Shown in pieces: positions 18,373 through 53,428 of a stretch of 64,000 nucleotides of DNA. The notes beneath the pieces are model-generated. The model saw nothing but the letters and a program-made list of their open reading frames with translations. It made no database searches and was not told the DNA's origin. Source of the DNA: Entophlyctis helioformis (lineage: Eukaryota > Chytridiomycota > Chytridiomycetes > Chytridiales > Chytriomycetaceae). Each line of letters starts with the position of its first letter. The first letter of the stretch is position 1. Both the position numbers and the translations under genes were made by a program. Location of the stretch: contig JAHLKH010000007.1 of assembly GCA_025526915.1 (NCBI GenBank), positions 62,001 through 126,000 of the forward strand, given 5' to 3'.

Positions 18373-18454
18373 TGCGTGCGATGGGGTTCGAACCCATGCA
18401 TCTTTCGATACCAGAACTTGAGTCTGGCGCCTTGGACCACTCGGCCACACACGC
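18373..18454 (-). tRNA. tRNA-Leu (anticodon CAA)
   Basis: The minus strand folds as a class II tRNA of 82 nt. The acceptor stem is GCGTGTG with CGCACGC plus discriminator A. The D arm contains TGGCCGAGTGG. The anticodon stem-loop is CCAGA-CT-CAA-GT-TCTGG, giving anticodon CAA, with a long variable arm and a T arm GGTTCGAACCC. No intron is visible in the anticodon loop. It sits between the ankyrin gene and the WNK gene. Confidence 0.95.
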
Positions 18455-18717: not shown

Positions 18718-21700
18718 TCAAGGATGCAAAGACGCAGCCGAGGCAGCCGACTGGCTGCTGAGTGTGCGATGGTGCTGTTGCTGCGCTTCCGCTTCTTGGG
18801 CAGGCTGTGGCGGTGGCGAGACTTGTGCCGGCAGTGGCCGGGACACGGCCACGGGTGCTTGCAGCTGCGGTGCACCTGGCATGGCGGTTGCAGGGACGCC
18901 TGTTGCAAGCACAGACACCGAGGCCGGTGACGAGGATGACGATGAGGATGGCGCAGATGCCGAGGGCACGCCCGTGACAGACGATGCACACGAGGACGAT
19001 GCCGACGACTGGTGTGTTTGCTGCTGGACATGGGCCGATGGGCCGGCAGGCACAGGACGCGGGAGCATGGGCCGCTGCAGACCGTCAAATCCAACGGCGT
19101 GTGTGCGGGCGGCCTGTGGGGGCGGTGGGATCTGCCCAAAGGGCTGCGGGCTTGAACTTGTCGAGCTGGACGCGCTGCTGCTCACACTGCCGACACTGTT
19201 GGAAAGCGCTACTCCTGGTGCAGGTGCAGGTGCAGCAAACCCTTGCTGCGGCCGCTGTTGGAGTTGCGGCTGGGACGGCTGGGAGGGATGGGACGACGGC
19301 TGTGTGGATTGGGTCGTCGAGTTCTTGCGCGAGAGCATCTGCTGCATGGTCGGCGCAGAGGCGAATCCAGGACCTTGCATTGTGATGCCAAAGTTGAAGA
19401 GATTGCTCTCCTGCAGCTGTCTCAGGCGATCGGCCACGTTGGCGTCGGCGTTGGGAGCTGCAAACACCGACTTGAGCTGCCCAGCAGGGAGGGCCGACTG
19501 GACAGAGGCGTGGCCCATGGAAAAGTACAGGATGCTGTTCTGCTGCGACTGCTGTTGTGCCGACTGGGGAGCATGCTGCTGGTGCGGCGGCGGGATGCTG
19601 GGCCAGGTCGAGATGGATGCCGGGTGCGAAGAGTGCTGCGCCATGACAGCCGCCGACGCTGGGAGGGGCACAGACACGATCGCAGGCTGCTGTCCAGACA
19701 CCGGCCCCCACGATGCAGACATGGACGTGGGCAGACCCCCCGCCGCCGCAGACCTGGACAGGGGATCGATCGTCGCGGCATAGGAAGCAGCTGCGGCAGA
19801 AACGGCATCAGCCAGGTGCACCAGGTTCGGCGCGCTCGAGCTGGTCTGCAGCAGGGTCGGTGCTGGTGCGGACGGCATGGCCAGGGCGACCGCGTGTGAG
19901 GCCGGGATCGGACCAACAGCCGGCACCTCGACGGGGTGACGCTCCGCATCGGCCAGCGGCACGGATGCGTCAACCGCCCATGCAGGCGGGAGCTGGAAGT
20001 TGGTGACGCTGGCCGACTTGGTGTGGCGGCTCTCGGTCCGGGGCGGGAATGCGTTTGGCGAGTGGTTGACGGGCATGCTTGGAAGCGTAGCGGGGGCCAT
20101 GGTTTGGCCAAACGCGTCGTCTGCATGCAGCGGGCCAAACGCCGGAGAGGTGTGGACGGCAGTGACGCCAGCTTGTGCACCGAAGCCAGATGCGGGCTGC
20201 GAGACGTCACGGGACCAAGAGGCGTGTGGGGCCGGGGGGAGAGGCGGCGAGGTGCGTGTTTTCGGGAGAGGCAGGGTGAAGTGCTGCGGATTGGCGGATG
20301 ACTGGGCCGGCGTGTTGGACGAGCGAGCCGAGCGAGGGAACGTCGCGGCACCATCGATGCCGAGCACGGCCGACTCTGGCACGGACGGCATTGGGGACGG
20401 GGGCCGCACGGCAGCCGATTGCAGAGACGAGATCGACGACGCAGTCGATGCGGACGACGACGACGAAGCCAACGTCTCCATCATGGCCACAACGGCCGCC
20501 GACGTGACGCTCATTCCTCCAGCCTGTACGGGGATGTGCACAGGCGACATGGCGCGCGAGAGCCCAGACGCCTGTGACGGCGGTGGCTCGATCGGCAGAC
20601 TCTCGGCATCTGCAGACGGATACCGCTGGTGGCCTGGCGCGTCTGCAAGGGTGGCGTCCATGAGCAACACGCTCTTGGACGGTGCAGCCTGGGCAGCGGA
20701 TGCAGCGGGCTGAGCCGCGATCGGAGCAGCAGATGAGGAAGACGCCGCGACAAACGACGCAGCCAACGCAGCAGACGCGGCGTTGACAGTGACAGAAGGC
20801 AGCGTGGAGCTCGAGTCGATCACACCCGAGCGGCTCGAGTCGCTCTTTTGAGAGACGGCGTCGACAGACCGCCTGCGCATGAGCACGCTGCGGATGGCTT
20901 CCTCGATGCGGCGGCGGGCAATCTGCTCGTCCTCGGCCTGGATGAGCGACTCGCGCACCATCTCCGAGACCACATCGGTTGCCGTGTCTTCGTTGAGGTT
21001 GAACGGGAACTTGATGTCCTGGGTGACATTGCCATTGCGGTACGTCATCTTGAGATTGACGACGCTGGGTTCTGGGAATCCAAACGCTTCGACCTGGCAG
21101 GTGGCAAGGACGCCAGACGGCTGCTGCCCTGGAGGAAACACGCTTGGCCGCTCGAGAATCAAAAACGTGTGGTTCTCGGCATCGACTGTGGTTGCCGAGG
21201 ACGCGGTGGATGTGGACTGGGGGCCGGGCTGGATGATCTGGGGGATTGCGATTCTGGCCGGCTGCTGTGGAGCAGGCAGCGGCTGAGACAATGCGCGAGC
21301 CGGCACCGATGCCGGCGCCAGCGCCAGCGCCGGAACAGACACAGCCGACGACGATCGCGACGTTTGGGCAGACCCGCTGCCAGCAGACGCAGAGTCGGAC
21401 GGGACGTGGAGCATGGCGGCACTCGAAGCCGACGCCTGCGCATAGGACTGCGTTGGCGGCACTGACGGCGGTGGCGGCGACGGTGTCGGTTCGCGGCCCA
21501 AGTGCGACGGAGAGGGAGATCTGCGCGAGTCAAACGAGAGCGTCTGCCGCATGCGGGTTGGCGACTCTGTCATGTGCTCGACATTGGTCAACGGCAGCTG
21601 CTTGGCGCCCGTGGGAGGCTTTGCGTTGAGCTGCAACGGATTCGAGGGGAGTGGCTGGCGAACTGGCTGCTGCTGTTGTTGCTGTTGCTGTTGCTTCTCT

Positions 21701-24212
21701 GCAAAAGCCGGCTCAGAAAGCGAGCTCTGGAGGGTGTTGCCAAAGGACGAGTCTTGCATGCTGTCCATGGAGCTGGACGAGCCATTCGAGCCAAACTTGG
21801 CCGGCTGCGGCGGCGGCGCAAGGGCAGCCGACGTGATGAAGGGATGCATGAGCAGCTCGGCGGCCGACGGACGCTTGTTCGGGTTGGACTCTATGCACAG
21901 CTCGATAAACTTGCGGGTCTCTTCGTCCGAGATCTTGTACAAGGCGGCCGGCTTGACGCCCGTGGACACCTTTTTGTAGATCTGCGCCTGGTTGGTGCAC
22001 TCTGAGTAGGGGTATTCTTTGGACACGATTTCGAGCAGGACCTGTGTGCAGGGGCATGGGCAGTGTGTAAGGAGAAGCGAGCACGAGCACGAGCACGAGC
22101 GCGGCAGCAGAGTGGGCGAGAGCGTTTTCCAGACGCACCATGCCAAAGGCGTAAACGTCGACCTTTTCGTCGTATTTCTCGTCGTAGAGCTCCGGCGCCA
22201 TAAACTCGGGAGTGCTGCACGGGGCGGAGAAGAGGCAGTGAGCAGGGCAGAAATAAGGAAAATAAAGGAGGCAAGGCATGTGCAGGGATATGCAGGGATA
22301 CAAAGCACAAGAGCACAAAGCACAAGAGCACAAAGCACAAGCACGCACCCAAGGACCGACGAGAGGTGCTCTCTGCGCTTGACGGCGGCCAGGCCCAGGT
22401 CGCCAATCTTTGCCTGGCCGTTGTTGCCGTTGATGAAGATGTTTTCGGACTTGAGGTCTCTGTGGATGATGGGCGGGTCGCGGGTGTGCAGGTAGAGGAG
22501 GCCGGACAGGATCTGGCGGGCCCAGTTGCGCAGGATCTTTGGCCTGATCTGGCCCTTTGTCTTGCGGCTGTACGACTTGAGCGTGCCCGACGTCATGAGC
22601 TCGGTGATGAAGTAGATGCGGTCCTTGCCGTTGGGGCCCTTGACGACCCACGAGTGGAAAAAGTTCTAAAGTCGTTCGTGAGTGAGTGAGACAGCCGTGA
22701 GACAAGCGTGAGACAGCCGTGAGACAGACATGCGTGAGACAGACAAGCGTGAGACACACACACACACACGAGACAAGAGAGACAAGAGAGACGCACAATG
22801 ATATTGTCGTTGCGCAGGCCCTCGAGCAGCTGGATCTCGAAAAAGACGCGCTGCACGTCCTTCTTGGACAGGTGGTCGAGGCGCAGCTGGTTCCAGGCGA
22901 CCTCGACGCCCTCGTCCTGGTCAAAGGCCTTGAAGACCTCCTTGTAGGCGCCCTTGCCCAGCGACTGGGCGTAGCGCTCGAAGCGGCCGGTGGGGTCCGT
23001 CTGGCCCACACACACACACGCGCAGTGGATGAGACAGTGTGTGAGACAGTGGGATGGGGCAGTGGATGAGACAGTGGATGAGACGGTGTGAGACAGCCAG
23101 TGTCGCGAGATGTGCATGCATGCACAGTCAATGCATATCCACTGCACATCCACAATAGATGACGCAAGTGCCTCTTGCCGATAGCGGCAAGACTCGATGC
23201 ACAGGCACAAGCAGCCAGGCAAGGCAAGCACGGGAGCCACTTTACAAATTACGACACCAGAGAGACAGGCAGGCAGCCTCTTGGGCAGCCTCTTGGGCAG
23301 CCTCTTGGGCTCTGCACGCACAGTCACACACAGTCATACATGCACAGACAGCCACAGCCACGCATCTGCACACACCTCGACTACTCGGTGGTCGTCGTCA
23401 TCGTCGTCGTCATCGTTGAGCTGATGCACGTTGATGGCCGGCCCTTGCTGCTGCTGTTGATGTTGCTGCTGTTGCTGCTGTTGATGTTGTGGTTGTTGAT
23501 GTTGTCGGGGCATCTGCGTGGTCGTCTGCGCTGTCGCCGGCATGGCAGCCGATTCACGATAAAGCGGCTGTTGCTGCTGCGAGTGTTGCTGTTGAGACTG
23601 CGAGTGCTGCTGCGAGTGCTGCTGTTGAGCCTGCAGAGCAACCGGCTGTGGATGTGCCTGCTGGTACGCTGCAATGAGCGACGGCCGCAGCGCCCCTCCT
23701 GGCGAGCCGGGCGACGGAGCGGCGATGCGCTGGGGCAGCATCCACTGCTGCACTTGCTGCTGCGTGTGTGTCTGTGTCTGTGTCTGTGACTGTGGCTGCT
23801 CTCGCTGCTCTCGCTGCTGTGTCTGCTGCTCTCGCTGCACTTGCGGCTGTTCGCTGTGCGGCTGACTCGCAGAGTTCAAGCCCTGCAGATTGACGCCGTC
23901 GGCCCCGAGCCGCATTGCCGGCGCCGCGCTCTCAGTCTCGGCCACTGCCTCGGCCTCAGTCTCGGCCACGGCCACGGGCACTGGCACTGGCCGTGCGAGT
24001 GCCGGCTTGGCCACCGGCGTGCGCTGGCTGTCCTCGTCGTCGCCTTCGCCGTCGTCCTTGTTGTCGTCCTTGTTACGGCTGTCGTTGTTGCCGTCGTCGT
24101 TGTTGTCGTTGCTGCTGCTGCTGCTGCTGCTGCTGCCTTCGGCGGCAGTCTTGCCTGCGGGATCCGCTCCCGGTGCTGCGGGCGACGCCGTCAGCGCGGA
24201 TCGCAGGCCCAT
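18718..24212 (-). CDS. WNK-type protein kinase with OSR1_C-like domain
   Basis: Exons (minus) are 24212..23376, 23000..22797, 22665..22349, 22214..22139 and 22041..18718: 1,585 residues. After a poly-Asp/Gln-rich N-terminus, the kinase domain begins with [12 protein letters not shown] near 294. The usual beta-3 lysine is replaced by Asn in EVAWNQL, while a Lys is present in GAYK, as in WNK1. HRDLKSEN is near 415, and the activation loop has GDLGLA instead of DFG and [10 protein letters not shown] second folded region near 775-870 (begins [15 protein letters not shown]) fits the OSR1_C/PF2-like domain that binds RFxV-type ligands. The rest is long, Ser/Pro/Gln/Ala-rich and probably disordered. 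WNKs sense chloride or crowding and signal through OSR1/SPAK kinases to ion transporters. Several introns hold simple repeats. An earlier ATG near 24434 is possible but would nearly abut the next gene. Confidence 0.93.
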
Positions 24213-24489: not shown

Positions 24490-26463
24490 TCACGCCAGGT
24501 TCTGCAGCCAGCGCCCGACGCCGTACGGATCGCCGCCAACCTGCACCCACTGCGCAACCGACGGCATGCGCCCGTCCACCACAAACAGCTGGTACCAGCC
24601 CGGCGGCACAATCGCCGCGTTGGGCGGACCCGTCACCTGCACGTTGTACAGCGGCGTCTGCTGCGTCTGTCGCGCCGCCGCCGCCGCGCCTGCCCCGCCC
24701 ACGCGCTGCCACACCGCGCTCAGCTCGACGCGCCGCTGCCCCATGTGCGTCGAGTGCGTCACAAAGCCGTCTGCACGTCCATTGCCTGGCGTTAGTCTCG
24801 CTGCCAAGCACAACATGCCAAGCACAGCATGCCATGGACCAGCAGCCATGGAACAGCAGGCAGAGCCGTGCACCCACTTGTCATGAGAACAATCTGCGCC
24901 TGCTGCGGTGCGCCAGACGGCAACGCCACGTTCAACGTCATCGCCTGCATGTACGCGACACCGCCCAGCGGCACGCCGCCCATGAGCACTGGCCGGTACC
25001 CGCCGTTGGCCAGATACGGCGGCGTGTACACCTCGATGCGCAGCTCGTTGGGGTACGGCACCGTGGCCGGGTCCACGTTGGCGTTTGCGTTGGGCGTCGA
25101 CCCAAACACGAGCACACGGCCGTCGTCCATGAGCAGCGCTTCCGAGTGGTACAGCCGCGCAATGGTCGACGTGGCCAGCGGCCGCATCCGCGCTCCGACC
25201 GGCAGGTACGGGTCGTACAGAACCGCCGTCTGCACCGGGTACTCGGCGTTGGCGAAGCCGGCCCAGCCCGTCTGCGCGCCGTTAAGGATGAGCACCGTGC
25301 CGTCGGGCAGCAGCGTCAGATCCGGCATCACCCGTGCATACGGCTGTCGCATCAACACGCGTCAGTCAGCCAGTCAGTCTGCCAGCCAGTCCCATCCACG
25401 CCATATCCCACGCACGCACCATCGCCTCCATCTGCCACTGGGCCGCAGGATCGAGCGGCGAGATGCGGCCACACGACGCCAGCGCCGGCGCGGTAATCAC
25501 CGTCCCCGTGCCACCACCGCACACGAGTACCTCGGCCAGATAGTTGTTGCGCGGCGACAGCGTGAGCAGCACCGACCCGCCCGTGAACGGATACGTGCGC
25601 TTGCCGTCCGGAATGACGGGCAGCTCGGCGACCGGCGCAAACGTGTTGGGGTTGAGCAGCTGCGAGCGGTCGCCGGCCATCAGAAACACCAGGTTGTTGG
25701 GCAGCAGGTGCGCGTGCGGGTACATGTTGTACGTGTCCGTGTCGACGAGCAGCTGCAGCGTGATCACCTGCTCGCCGGCCGCTGGCGGCACAAACTCCAT
25801 GTTGGGCTGGTTAAATGCCGGTGGGAACACGCCGACGATGCCCGTGGTGCCGCCAATGACAGCGACGCGGCCATTGGCAAGTGGCAGCGCCGTCGGATAC
25901 CATCTCGGCACCTGTGCACACAGATAAGCGCACACGCGCGTCAAAACGTCAGTTGCCTCTACATTGGCATCACCACCCCCGCGCGCAACACCAAAGCAAC
26001 CAGACAGTCATCGCACCTTGAGCGCCGCAAGGGTAGCGTCCTCGGCCCACTGGCACTGACCAAACAGGCCAGGCGTTCCGCACGGCACAAACACACGCAC
26101 AGCCTCAAGCGCCGGGCCGATCCACCCGCCGACATTGAACACGCGGGCAAGGGGGTCGGGCGACACGAAGCCGGCCGAGCAGAACACGTCCGAGGCAAAG
26201 GCGACGGGCCGCACCGCGAAGGTTGTTGTGTCAAACTCCATGGCATGCACGGTGCCGGCTTGGCCGCCGTCGATGCGCTCGAGCATCATGACTTTGCCGG
26301 TGCGCGGGAGGAGCACGGCGTGGATCGAGGCTACAAGCCCCTGCGCGACGATCTGGAAGAAACCGTCAAGGGCTGGCGTCTGGGCGGCTGCATGGCCGCT
26401 GAACAGGGCGACTGCGGCAGCTGCTGCTGCGGCCGAAAAGACAGTCTTGGCAGGGAGGCGCAT
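24490..26463 (-). CDS. secreted glyoxal oxidase (copper radical oxidase)
   Basis: Exons (minus) are 26463..26017, 25911..25420, 25343..24878 and 24770..24490: 561 residues, the usual size. A signal peptide (MRLPAKTV... to HAAA, ~27 residues) precedes a glyoxal-oxidase N-terminal beta-propeller and a C-terminal DUF1929-like domain. The expected copper-radical residues are visible: Cys95 in DVFCSAG, Tyr154 in PRWYPT, the Tyr378-His379 pair in RLYHSEAL, and the C-terminal His in [12 protein letters not shown] near 474. The enzyme oxidises simple aldehydes to acids and releases H2O2 outside the cell, feeding peroxidases or wall chemistry. It lies upstream of the WNK gene on the same strand. The alternative is another AA5 subfamily member. 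Confidence 0.93.
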
Positions 26464-38867: not shown

Positions 38868-41772
38868 TCAGAGCTGCTGCATCATCTTGGCCGTCCGCTT
38901 GACCTTGCGCCACTTGCACTCGCCGTAATCCAGCAGGATCCAGAGCGTCTCGCGTTTGCGCACTCCGTTCGGGTCTGCAAAGATGCGCTCGCTGAGCATG
39001 ATCTCCTTGATTTCGACGCGTTTGACTGTCCACCACAGACCGGCCCAGCCGTATCGGTCAGTACGATGCACTCCATCGGCAGATTGACAGACAGGCAGGC
39101 AGGCAGGCAGACGTACCATATCGGCCATTAAGAAAGTCGCTCACGGTGTTCATATCCTCCTTGGACAGACTGGCATTGCCAATCACCGCAGAGACGTCTA
39201 GCGGTTGCGGTTGCTGCTGCTGCTGTGTTGTTGTTGTTGTTGCTGCTGCTGCGCATATGGATGCGGTGGCGGCACCACGGCCGGCGGCGGTGCAGGCGCG
39301 TACGGTTGCTGAAAGGGCGACGCAGCAGGTATTTGGTCGGGATATGGCGGCAGAGGCGGCAGTTGGGACGCGGTTTGGTATCCACCAGCCGGGACGTTGC
39401 TGCCGTGTGGCATGGGCACAGGAGGCAATCCGCTGGCTTCGTAGAAGACAGCATTCGCATCGTGTGCGCCGCTCAGGGCAGTGGCGGGAAGGAAGGCATG
39501 TTTGGCGGGAATCCAGCAAAGTGGTCGGGGTGTGGCGGCAGGTGCGGCAGCGGTTGCTGGTACATGTGCTGTGGCGAGAATGGCGGGAATGCGCCAGACG
39601 GCGACATGGCAGACGGCGACGTGGGCGAGCCCATATCTGCAGACGACAGCCGTGGCCGCTTGGCTGCTGATGGTGGTTGTGGTGGTTGCAAACAGCGAGA
39701 AAACGCATATCAGCAAGTGCACACACATCAAGCAATGGAAGCAGGCATATCGACATACCATTGTGCTCTTCCAGTGCCTGTAAATGCCGCTGCTTGCGCT
39801 CCTCGCGCTCGCGCTCTTTGGCTTCCCTGGCCTCAGCCTTGGCCTTGCGCTCCTCCTCCAGCCGGATCTTCTTGAGCCGCTTCTCCTCGGCCTCGTGCTC
39901 CTTGGCGTCCTTCCGCGCTTGGATCTCTGCGTCCTTTTCGCGCTGCTTGCGGTCCTTCTCGGCCTTGGCGTCGTCCTCGATCTTGCGCTGCGCATCCGTC
40001 TTGGACTTGTCAATGTCTATCGCCTCTTCAATGTGCAGAATCTTGATCTTGGACTCTTTGCGGAACCCGCGTCCGATCATTGGTCCAAAGCCAGAGAGCG
40101 TGCCATCGGCGCGTGCAGAGCTGGGTCCCGTCAAACTGGTCCGGCGGCCAATGGGCGTGACGGCGAGCTGGCTCTTTTGGCGTAAGAACGGCGTGGGTGC
40201 CTTCTTGCGCACGCTGCCAGCTTGCGCCGATGCAGGCGACAGAGCAAGGAGCGACGCCGTCGAGTCCGTCTTGCTCAATCCACCCGGCGACTGCCCGGCA
40301 CCGCCCATGCCGCCCAGTGCACCAGAAAAGGTCGCCGATGTTGCAGACGTTGCAGATGTTGGCGTGCTGCCAAACCGCGGCATCGAGTTGCGGCGAGGGC
40401 TCTGCACCATGCCGTACGAAGCGATGCGCTCTTCCAGAGGCAGGATGGCATGCTCGTCCTTGAACTGAAAGGCAGGAGTGTGCGAGGATGACGATGCACC
40501 CGGTGTGGATGGCTCACGTACTTGCAACGACCGCCGCACGTTGTGGCCCAGATATGCAATCTCGCGCGGCGCAAAGCGGTGTGATCCGAGCGACTGGCGC
40601 ATGGCCTCGAGGACTGGCGCAAACACTGGCGAGTTGTCAAGCACTTCGTCCGAGCCAAAGTAGCCGTGAGAGACCCACTTGCTGACCGCCGCCGCGAGAA
40701 TGCGCACATACTCGTCCTCGTCTTGCAGGCCGAGTTCCACGAGCTGCTCCACGAGTTGCACGGAAAAAGGGAATGGCAATGGCAAGGCATAAGCAAGAAG
40801 CCCAAGGACCGGACGACAACAAGCACGACAACAACAACGGAGAGAGAGAGAAACGCACCTTTTCAGAGACTTGCTTGAGATCAGACGAGATGCGCTTCTT
40901 GGGTGATGCGAGGATGGCCAGCAAGAACCCAGCGCGGAACCCTGGCTGGCTGGCCATGGACGGCCACTTGAAGACGAGAAACTCGAGGATGTCGGCCGAC
41001 AGATGTGCAGACACGCGGTCGTTGATGCTCCACGGCACAGACGTCAGCGCCTTGCCGAAGTATAAGTAGACCTGGTCGAGCCGCTGCTGTTGCTGCTGCA
41101 AAGCCATCTGTTGTTGCTGTTGTTGGTACTGCTGTTGCTGCTGCAGTTGCTGAAGGTACTGCGCCTCCAGCGGCTGCACTTGCCCTTGCAGTGGCGGTTG
41201 TGGTGGTGGTGGTGGTAGTTGCTGCTGGTCGCTCATGGCTGCAAAGGATCAAACACGTTTCCGTCGTGGTCGCAAGTCGGGGAACAGAGCGTCGAGTGCA
41301 GATGTGGATGCCGATGCAGTTGCGGATGTGGATGCAGATGCCGAGCGTGACGAGGGGGCACGGGATGGGCAAAAGCAAGGAAAGATGGGCACTGGAGATG
41401 GAGAGGCAACACACGGGCTGTATTGCAGGGTAGGTGCGGTGGGTGCAGTTGTGGCTGAGCAGAGGTAGAGTGGAGATGAGAGGGCGTGGCCGTACAGCAT
41501 TCGTCAAGCGGTCGATGTCGTCGATGTCAAAGTCGTCGTCGTCGTCGGTCGTCGGTGGTCCTGTCGGCGCGTCGCGTGTCGCAGGGGGGAAAGGCGCGTC
41601 CGAAAGTGTCCGACTTGGCGGAGTGTGGCTTGGCGGAGTGTGGCTTGGCCGTGCTTGGAGTCTTGTTTTTCGGAGGAGACGGTAGACTGCGAGGCGGCTT
41701 TTCAGACTTTTCGCGTTTGATTTGAGGCGGCCCCGACTGCTGCGCTGCGCTGCTGGCCGGGGCAGCAGTCAT
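38868..41772 (-). CDS. NELF-A-like transcription elongation factor, frame breaks present
   Basis: The main exons (minus) are 41236..40859, ~40743..40522, 40464..39759, 39666..~39473, a P/Q-rich region with two frame changes, an exon ending at 39117, and a last exon ending at 38868. The N-terminal helical part (DQVYLYFGKALTSVPWSI ... DILEFLVFKWPSM) is followed by ILPLEERI, a basic linker with KAPTPFLRQKSQ and RKESKIKILHIEEAIDI, a Lys/Glu/Arg coiled coil, a Pro/Gln region and a C-terminal domain (LSKEDMNTVSDFL ... RVEIKEIMLSERIF ... LLDYGECKWRKVKR). Order and spacing match metazoan NELF-A, including its HDAg-type C-terminus. NELF pauses RNA polymerase II. An upstream exon (41772..~41511, ending in an Asp-rich helix DFDIDDIDRLTN) likely belongs here but needs one frame correction. 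Confidence 0.7.
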
Positions 41773-53355: not shown

Positions 53356-53428
53356 GCCCGGCTAGCTCAATCGGTAGAGCGTAAGACTCTTAATCTTAAG
53401 GTTGTGGGTTCGACCCCCACGTCGGGCT
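53356..53428 (+). tRNA. tRNA-Lys (anticodon CTT)
   Basis: A 73-nt class I tRNA. The acceptor stem is GCCCGGC with GTCGGGC plus discriminator T. The D arm contains TAGCTCAATCGGTAGAGC. The anticodon stem-loop is TAAGA-CT-CTT-AA-TCTTA, anticodon CTT. The T arm is GTGGGTTCGACCCCCAC. There is no intron. Confidence 0.95.

Follow-up and report, generated by a model that had tools for sequence, protein, structure and literature searches.

A probable divergent NELF-A encoded alongside NELF-C/D in the chytrid fungus Entophlyctis helioformis

Entophlyctis helioformis, by taxonomy a member of the Chytridiomycota, carries on the minus strand of a 64,000-nucleotide stretch of its genome (contig JAHLKH010000007.1, positions 62,001 to 126,000, assembly GCA_025526915.1; hereafter the window) a gene, at 41236-38868, that most likely encodes a divergent NELF-A. 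The best explanation of the data, and one in which we place considerable confidence, is that this protein is a chytrid orthologue of NELF-A, a subunit of the complex that restrains RNA polymerase II (Pol II) in animals. With the NELF-C/D encoded by the same genome (29.57 Mb in 482 contigs), it would make up a NELF-AC module on Pol II. When residues 52-240 of the window protein were used as query, one protein among 1587 candidates was recovered at E <= 0.001, the 100% identical P0001 (BC831DRAFT_274868) of E. helioformis, which is deposited as a hypothetical protein. This match to a chytrid bears out the fungal host that a first-pass annotation of the window had proposed together with a NELF-A-like protein.

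The resemblance to NELF-A is strongest in the N-terminal domain. Local alignment with residues 1-160 of human NELF-A yields a score of 68 (z 8.4) that was reached by none of 2000 shuffled sequences, and four further vertebrate NELF-A proteins give z values of 6.3-9.3 (0/300 shuffles each). The highest score, 80 (z 10.5, 0/500 shuffles), is obtained with a sequence taken as fly NELF-A, its identity having been checked by a Pfam score of 264.8 bits. We judge from these comparisons that the N-terminal domain resembles NELF-A from at least two phyla to a degree above chance. NELF-A residues reported to contact NELF-C are W24, W89 and the a7-a8 segment, residues 138-154 (Vos 2016, PMC4940160). In the window protein, W89 corresponds to Y138, the human basic pair R65 R66 to K113 K114 and, in global alignments only, W24 to W69, whereas within the buried helices 7-8 the residues P, E, Y, L, N and L are identical (6 of the 15 at human 138-152). 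The global hhalign alignment extends over the exon 2 region.

The remainder of the protein resembles NELF-A less closely. In the linker, RKESKIKILHI aligns in matching order with human RKERGVKLLDI, at a score reached by 47/2000 shuffles; a rerun of the middle part gave 16/500 against human and 26/500 against fly, weaker than the N-terminal domain. The first-pass annotation had recognised the complete NELF-A domain order, including an LPLE motif and a C-terminal domain with IKEIMLSER and DYGECKW. The order of N-terminal domain and linker is retained in our alignments, the latter with the lesser support just given; the other two elements are not. The LPLE at residues 227-230 is a coincidence of letters and was rejected, the MLPLECQYL site of NELF-A aligning instead with FAPREIAYLGHN at residues 183-194. 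The C-terminal tail resembles that of NELF-A by eye and yet fails both shuffle tests, with 266/2000 shuffles reaching the pairwise score and 112/2000 the score against a hidden Markov model (HMM) of vertebrate C-termini. Since the similarity is not significant, we do not claim the whole animal domain order. Like metazoan NELF-A (NELFA/WHSC2; PDB 5L3X, 6GML), the chytrid protein would present a helical N-terminal domain, an NELF-C-contacting stretch and then a linker with RKE...K(I/L)L.I; it differs in its low identity (21-24%), a Pfam score under the cut-off, a Q/P-rich start, a long charged helix after the linker and a tail that is not demonstrably homologous.

A second NELF subunit is encoded in the same genome. 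Spliced by hand, the NELF-C/D gene comprises nine GT-AG exons and specifies 490 residues that match the TH1 profile at E 2.9e-39; residues 121-449 align with human NELF-C/D at E 4.5e-24, and a tblastn search with human NELF-C recovers it at a genome-scaled E of 1.5e-4. Because NELF-C/D is present, the genome does not lack every other NELF subunit, the outcome that the first-pass annotation had named as speaking against its proposal. The deposited counterpart, P0122 (TH1 protein-domain-containing protein), joins exons 1-2 differently, and the other chytrid proteins back P0122 at this junction and the hand splice at the last intron. P0122 retains the last intron as coding sequence (GTSIRCLCCISACWQCNSLLVSA), and in the hand splice the first dozen or so residues of exon 2 are likely intronic. 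A protein search returned five NELF-C/D proteins among 4691 candidates: P0122, those of Polyrhizophydium stewartii, Batrachochytrium dendrobatidis and B. salamandrivorans, and one unnamed fragment of 292 residues. The P. stewartii protein, P0123, is publicly named Negative elongation factor C/D, so that fungal NELF is not wholly unrecorded; our literature search found no paper linking NELF with chytrids or early-diverging fungi.

The chytrid NELF-C/D proteins match the core of the human protein but not its N-terminal segment. The NELF-C/D chain comprises residues 36-182 in PDB 8jj6, an entry that also holds NELF-B, and residues 186-590 in PDB 5l3x, which also holds NELF-A; the two are described as the NELF-BCE and NELF-AC complexes, respectively (PMC11881899). 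Among the four full-length chytrid proteins (the 292-residue fragment, with a TH1 match beginning at 284, is excluded from this count), the TH1 profile is matched only from position 183-224 onward. The same profile covers a sequence taken as human NELF-C/D from position 4. The N-terminal parts of the four proteins are 102-126 residues long, acidic and then mostly of low complexity, and have no similarity to human 36-182, the alignment scores being reached by 60 to 411 of 500 shuffles; the remainder aligns with human 186-590 at z 38-45, over a human span that runs from 196-236 to 561-581. By these alignments, the four full-length proteins lack the part co-crystallised with NELF-B and retain the NELF-A-binding core. 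Because proteins of three genera agree, an error in one gene model would hardly explain this.

Our best reading is that a NELF-AC module survives in chytrids, possibly with the BE lobe missing. The N-terminal helical domain and the following extended region of the NELF-A candidate would, by analogy with the known NELF structure, bind NELF-C/D, and the resulting module would dock on Pol II and slow early elongation. The AC lobe is described as able to obstruct the secondary channel of Pol II, the site of TFIIS, and the BE lobe as adjoining RPB5 and able to reach downstream DNA (PMC11881899). A stricter version, which we put forward tentatively and at somewhat less than even confidence, holds that chytrid NELF consists of NELF-A and NELF-C/D alone, NELF-B and NELF-E having disappeared along with the part of NELF-C/D that binds NELF-B. 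Such a complex would act only via the lobe at the secondary channel and might hold Pol II back through that contact alone.

If the NELF-A assignment is correct, the complex may instead have all four subunits, NELF-B and NELF-E having escaped our searches through divergence or interruption by introns, a possibility that is real though not one we would favour. The six-frame family search breaks at introns and is of limited sensitivity for both subunits, and neither it nor tblastn picked up even the NELF-A gene. Moreover, controls for the COBRA1, TH1 and NELF-A_N family searches were positive in 0/14 control genomes and therefore give no test of the COBRA1 search. Within these limits, no PF06209 (COBRA1) candidate for NELF-B was found in the intron-broken six-frame frames of the genome. 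The sole match to human NELF-B (on contig C4, E 0.76, as opposed to the E 1.5e-4 of NELF-C) was dismissed by eye as spurious, since an ankyrin-like frame occupies the other strand there. The NELF-E query gave only three generic RRM matches (E 0.003-0.02), rejected by eye as the RRMs of apparent Pumilio-type and PABP-type proteins. Together with the segment missing from all four full-length NELF-C/D proteins, these results speak against a four-subunit complex; the absence of NELF-B is nevertheless only suggested, because tblastn also misses NELF-A and because of the uninformative controls. The complete pausing complex implied by the first-pass annotation was recovered only as far as NELF-C/D. 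Genome searches for 7SK and HEXIM gave no match, which does not show absence, the 7SK control being positive only in three prokaryotes, below the cut-off, and the HEXIM control nowhere.

Several observations weigh against the assignment to NELF-A itself. The window protein scores 18.1-18.5 bits (E 0.002-0.0027) against Pfam NELF-A_N (PF23553) and 21.3 bits (E 2.8e-4) when trimmed to the domain, in both cases under the curated cut-off of 27 bits, so the profile search proposed in the first-pass annotation did not confirm the family. Neither did structure prediction: the single-sequence AlphaFold model is poor, uninformative and without a structural match, and NELF-A came first only when NELF-A rows were included in the alignment. 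PDB searches with the protein and with its C-terminal piece gave chance-level matches only. Columns in which human and fly are conserved show no excess of identities (16/62 against 12/65, p 0.22), and hhalign assigns a low probability, 3.7% for vertebrates alone and 26-43% after human and fly were added. The 1587 candidates yielded no relative, even though a search for NELF-C/D did recover it from three further chytrid species, and tblastn with human or fly NELF-A does not detect the gene at E <= 100 (scaled to the genome). A NELF-A protein search with human and window rows returned 885 proteins at E <= 1; among the 120 listed, five were without an organism name and the others were vertebrate, with no fungal relative.

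These observations would also be expected if this were a different nuclear protein, helical and charged, with N-terminal helices that match the NELF-A profile by coincidence, and an open reading frame (ORF) on contig C19 of the same genome seems to provide an example. This ORF is the only six-frame NELF-A_N match at E <= 10 genome-wide (20 bits; 17.5 in hmmscan). It scores 16.3 bits against our own HMM of 14 NELF-A rows, compared with 16.1 for the window protein when both are trimmed, and 62 (0/500 shuffles) against human NELF-A, compared with 68. The two proteins part elsewhere: as whole proteins they score 14.7 and 19.2 bits, respectively, on our HMM, and against fly NELF-A the ORF reaches only z 3.3 (3/500 shuffles). 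Furthermore, the C19 ORF covers only profile positions 19-113, has no global hhalign alignment with NELF-A (E 0.95) and, in local alignment, stops short of the P.E..YL..N....L stretch. We judge its match to be probably fortuitous and set it aside as apparently unrelated to NELF-A. Given these differences, and a NELF-C/D encoded in the same genome, a non-NELF-A identity for the window protein seems improbable to us, and a NELF-A relative remains the most likely assignment in spite of profile scores that stay under the cut-off.

The 3' end of the NELF-A candidate gene is less regular than its beginning (Table 1). Exons 1-3, joined by GT-AG introns of 115 and 92 bases, translate to the deposited P0001 of 518 aa; an alternative start at 41772 is ruled out, the deposited protein beginning at 41236. 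The C-terminal piece lies outside this model, separated from the deposited frame by two frame changes, and reads VSDFLNGRY, a 91-base GT-AG intron and VKRVEIKEIMLSER...DYGECKWRKVKR, with a stop at 38870-38868. Its last exon has a coding-like composition (GC 0.85 at third and 0.35 at second positions), and the proline-rich stretch ahead of it lacks a clear coding signal (GC 0.60 at third and 0.75 at first positions). Among 31 single introns enumerated to join exon 3 to the C-terminal piece, none was convincing. That the changes at 39473 and in the polyglutamine (polyQ) run, ahead of a C-terminal piece that the 518-aa deposited protein does not reach, mark a decaying NELF-A relic is very unlikely, since exons 1-3 stay open across GT-AG introns, coding-like base periods persist in exons 1-2 and in the last exon, and both changes fall in Pro/Gln-rich sequence, in which unseen introns or assembly errors, either of them common there, may account for them.

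Table 1. Coordinates of the candidate NELF-A gene (window positions) and of further loci in the E. helioformis genome (contig positions)
Feature	Position	Strand	Basis or content
Exon 1	40859..41236	-	Splice model; same as deposited P0001; Pfam NELF-A_N at residues 71-195
Exon 2	39759..40743	-	Remainder of N-terminal domain (Y138, P165, FAPREIAYLGHN), basic linker (TPFLRQKS, RKESKIKILHIEE), long charged helix
Exon 3 as deposited	39473..39666	-	AAKRPRL...; TGA stop of that frame at 39475-39473
Proline-rich open stretch in another frame, from deposited stop to polyQ run	39250..39472	-	End approximate
QPQPLDVSAVIGNASLSKEDMNTVSDFLNGRY piece, third frame	39117..39230	-	Upper boundary approximate
Last exon, VKRVEIKEIMLSER...LDYGECKWRKVKRTAKMMQQL and stop; candidate NELF-A-like C-terminal tail	38868..39025	-	GT-AG intron 39116-39026
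NELF-C/D gene	G000:C27:113883-111868 (locus L004)	-	TH1 profile
ORF of 647 residues, no other clear Pfam family	G000:C19:136171-136464 (locus L009)	-	17.5-20 bit match to NELF-A_N

The surroundings of the candidate gene appear to fit a fungal host. Nine of the 20 open frames chosen for scanning in the window had a match at E <= 0.001, and a chitin-binding domain, ankyrin proteins, an alcohol dehydrogenase and a CHD5 protein are among them, as are an OSR1-type kinase and a piece of glyoxal oxidase. The kinase (window 18721-22665, minus strand) bears a C-terminal OSR1 domain of the WNK-OSR1/SPAK pathway type, here in a chytrid; the glyoxal oxidase piece is N-terminal (window 25369-26007, minus strand). 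Rfam places two tRNA genes in the window, at 53356-53428 on the plus strand and 18373-18454 on the minus strand.

As a NELF-A, the candidate would extend a family already known, and the AC combination, if NELF-B is absent, would be a reduced form of NELF. One 2025 structural paper still terms NELF metazoan-specific (PMC11881899). Non-animal NELF-A homologues have been described from Dictyostelium, Chlorella and Capsaspora (PMC4940160, PMC11482795), to which the chytrid protein would add a fungal one. In the account of Chivu 2024 (PMC11482795), NELF-B and NELF-C/D are widespread and treated as the ancestral core, apparent NELF-A homologues occur in some unicellular eukaryotes and the HDAg-like part is confined to animals and Capsaspora. 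A fungal NELF-A together with NELF-C/D, if true, would trace NELF-A back to the ancestor shared by animals and fungi, yeasts having lost it, and part of the NELF machinery seems to predate animals. Should chytrid NELF consist of these two subunits alone, it would contradict the view that NELF-B and NELF-C/D form the indispensable core and that NELF-A joined them around the time when animals arose; and if NELF-B is truly absent, chytrids would be a natural test of the AC lobe without the BE lobe.
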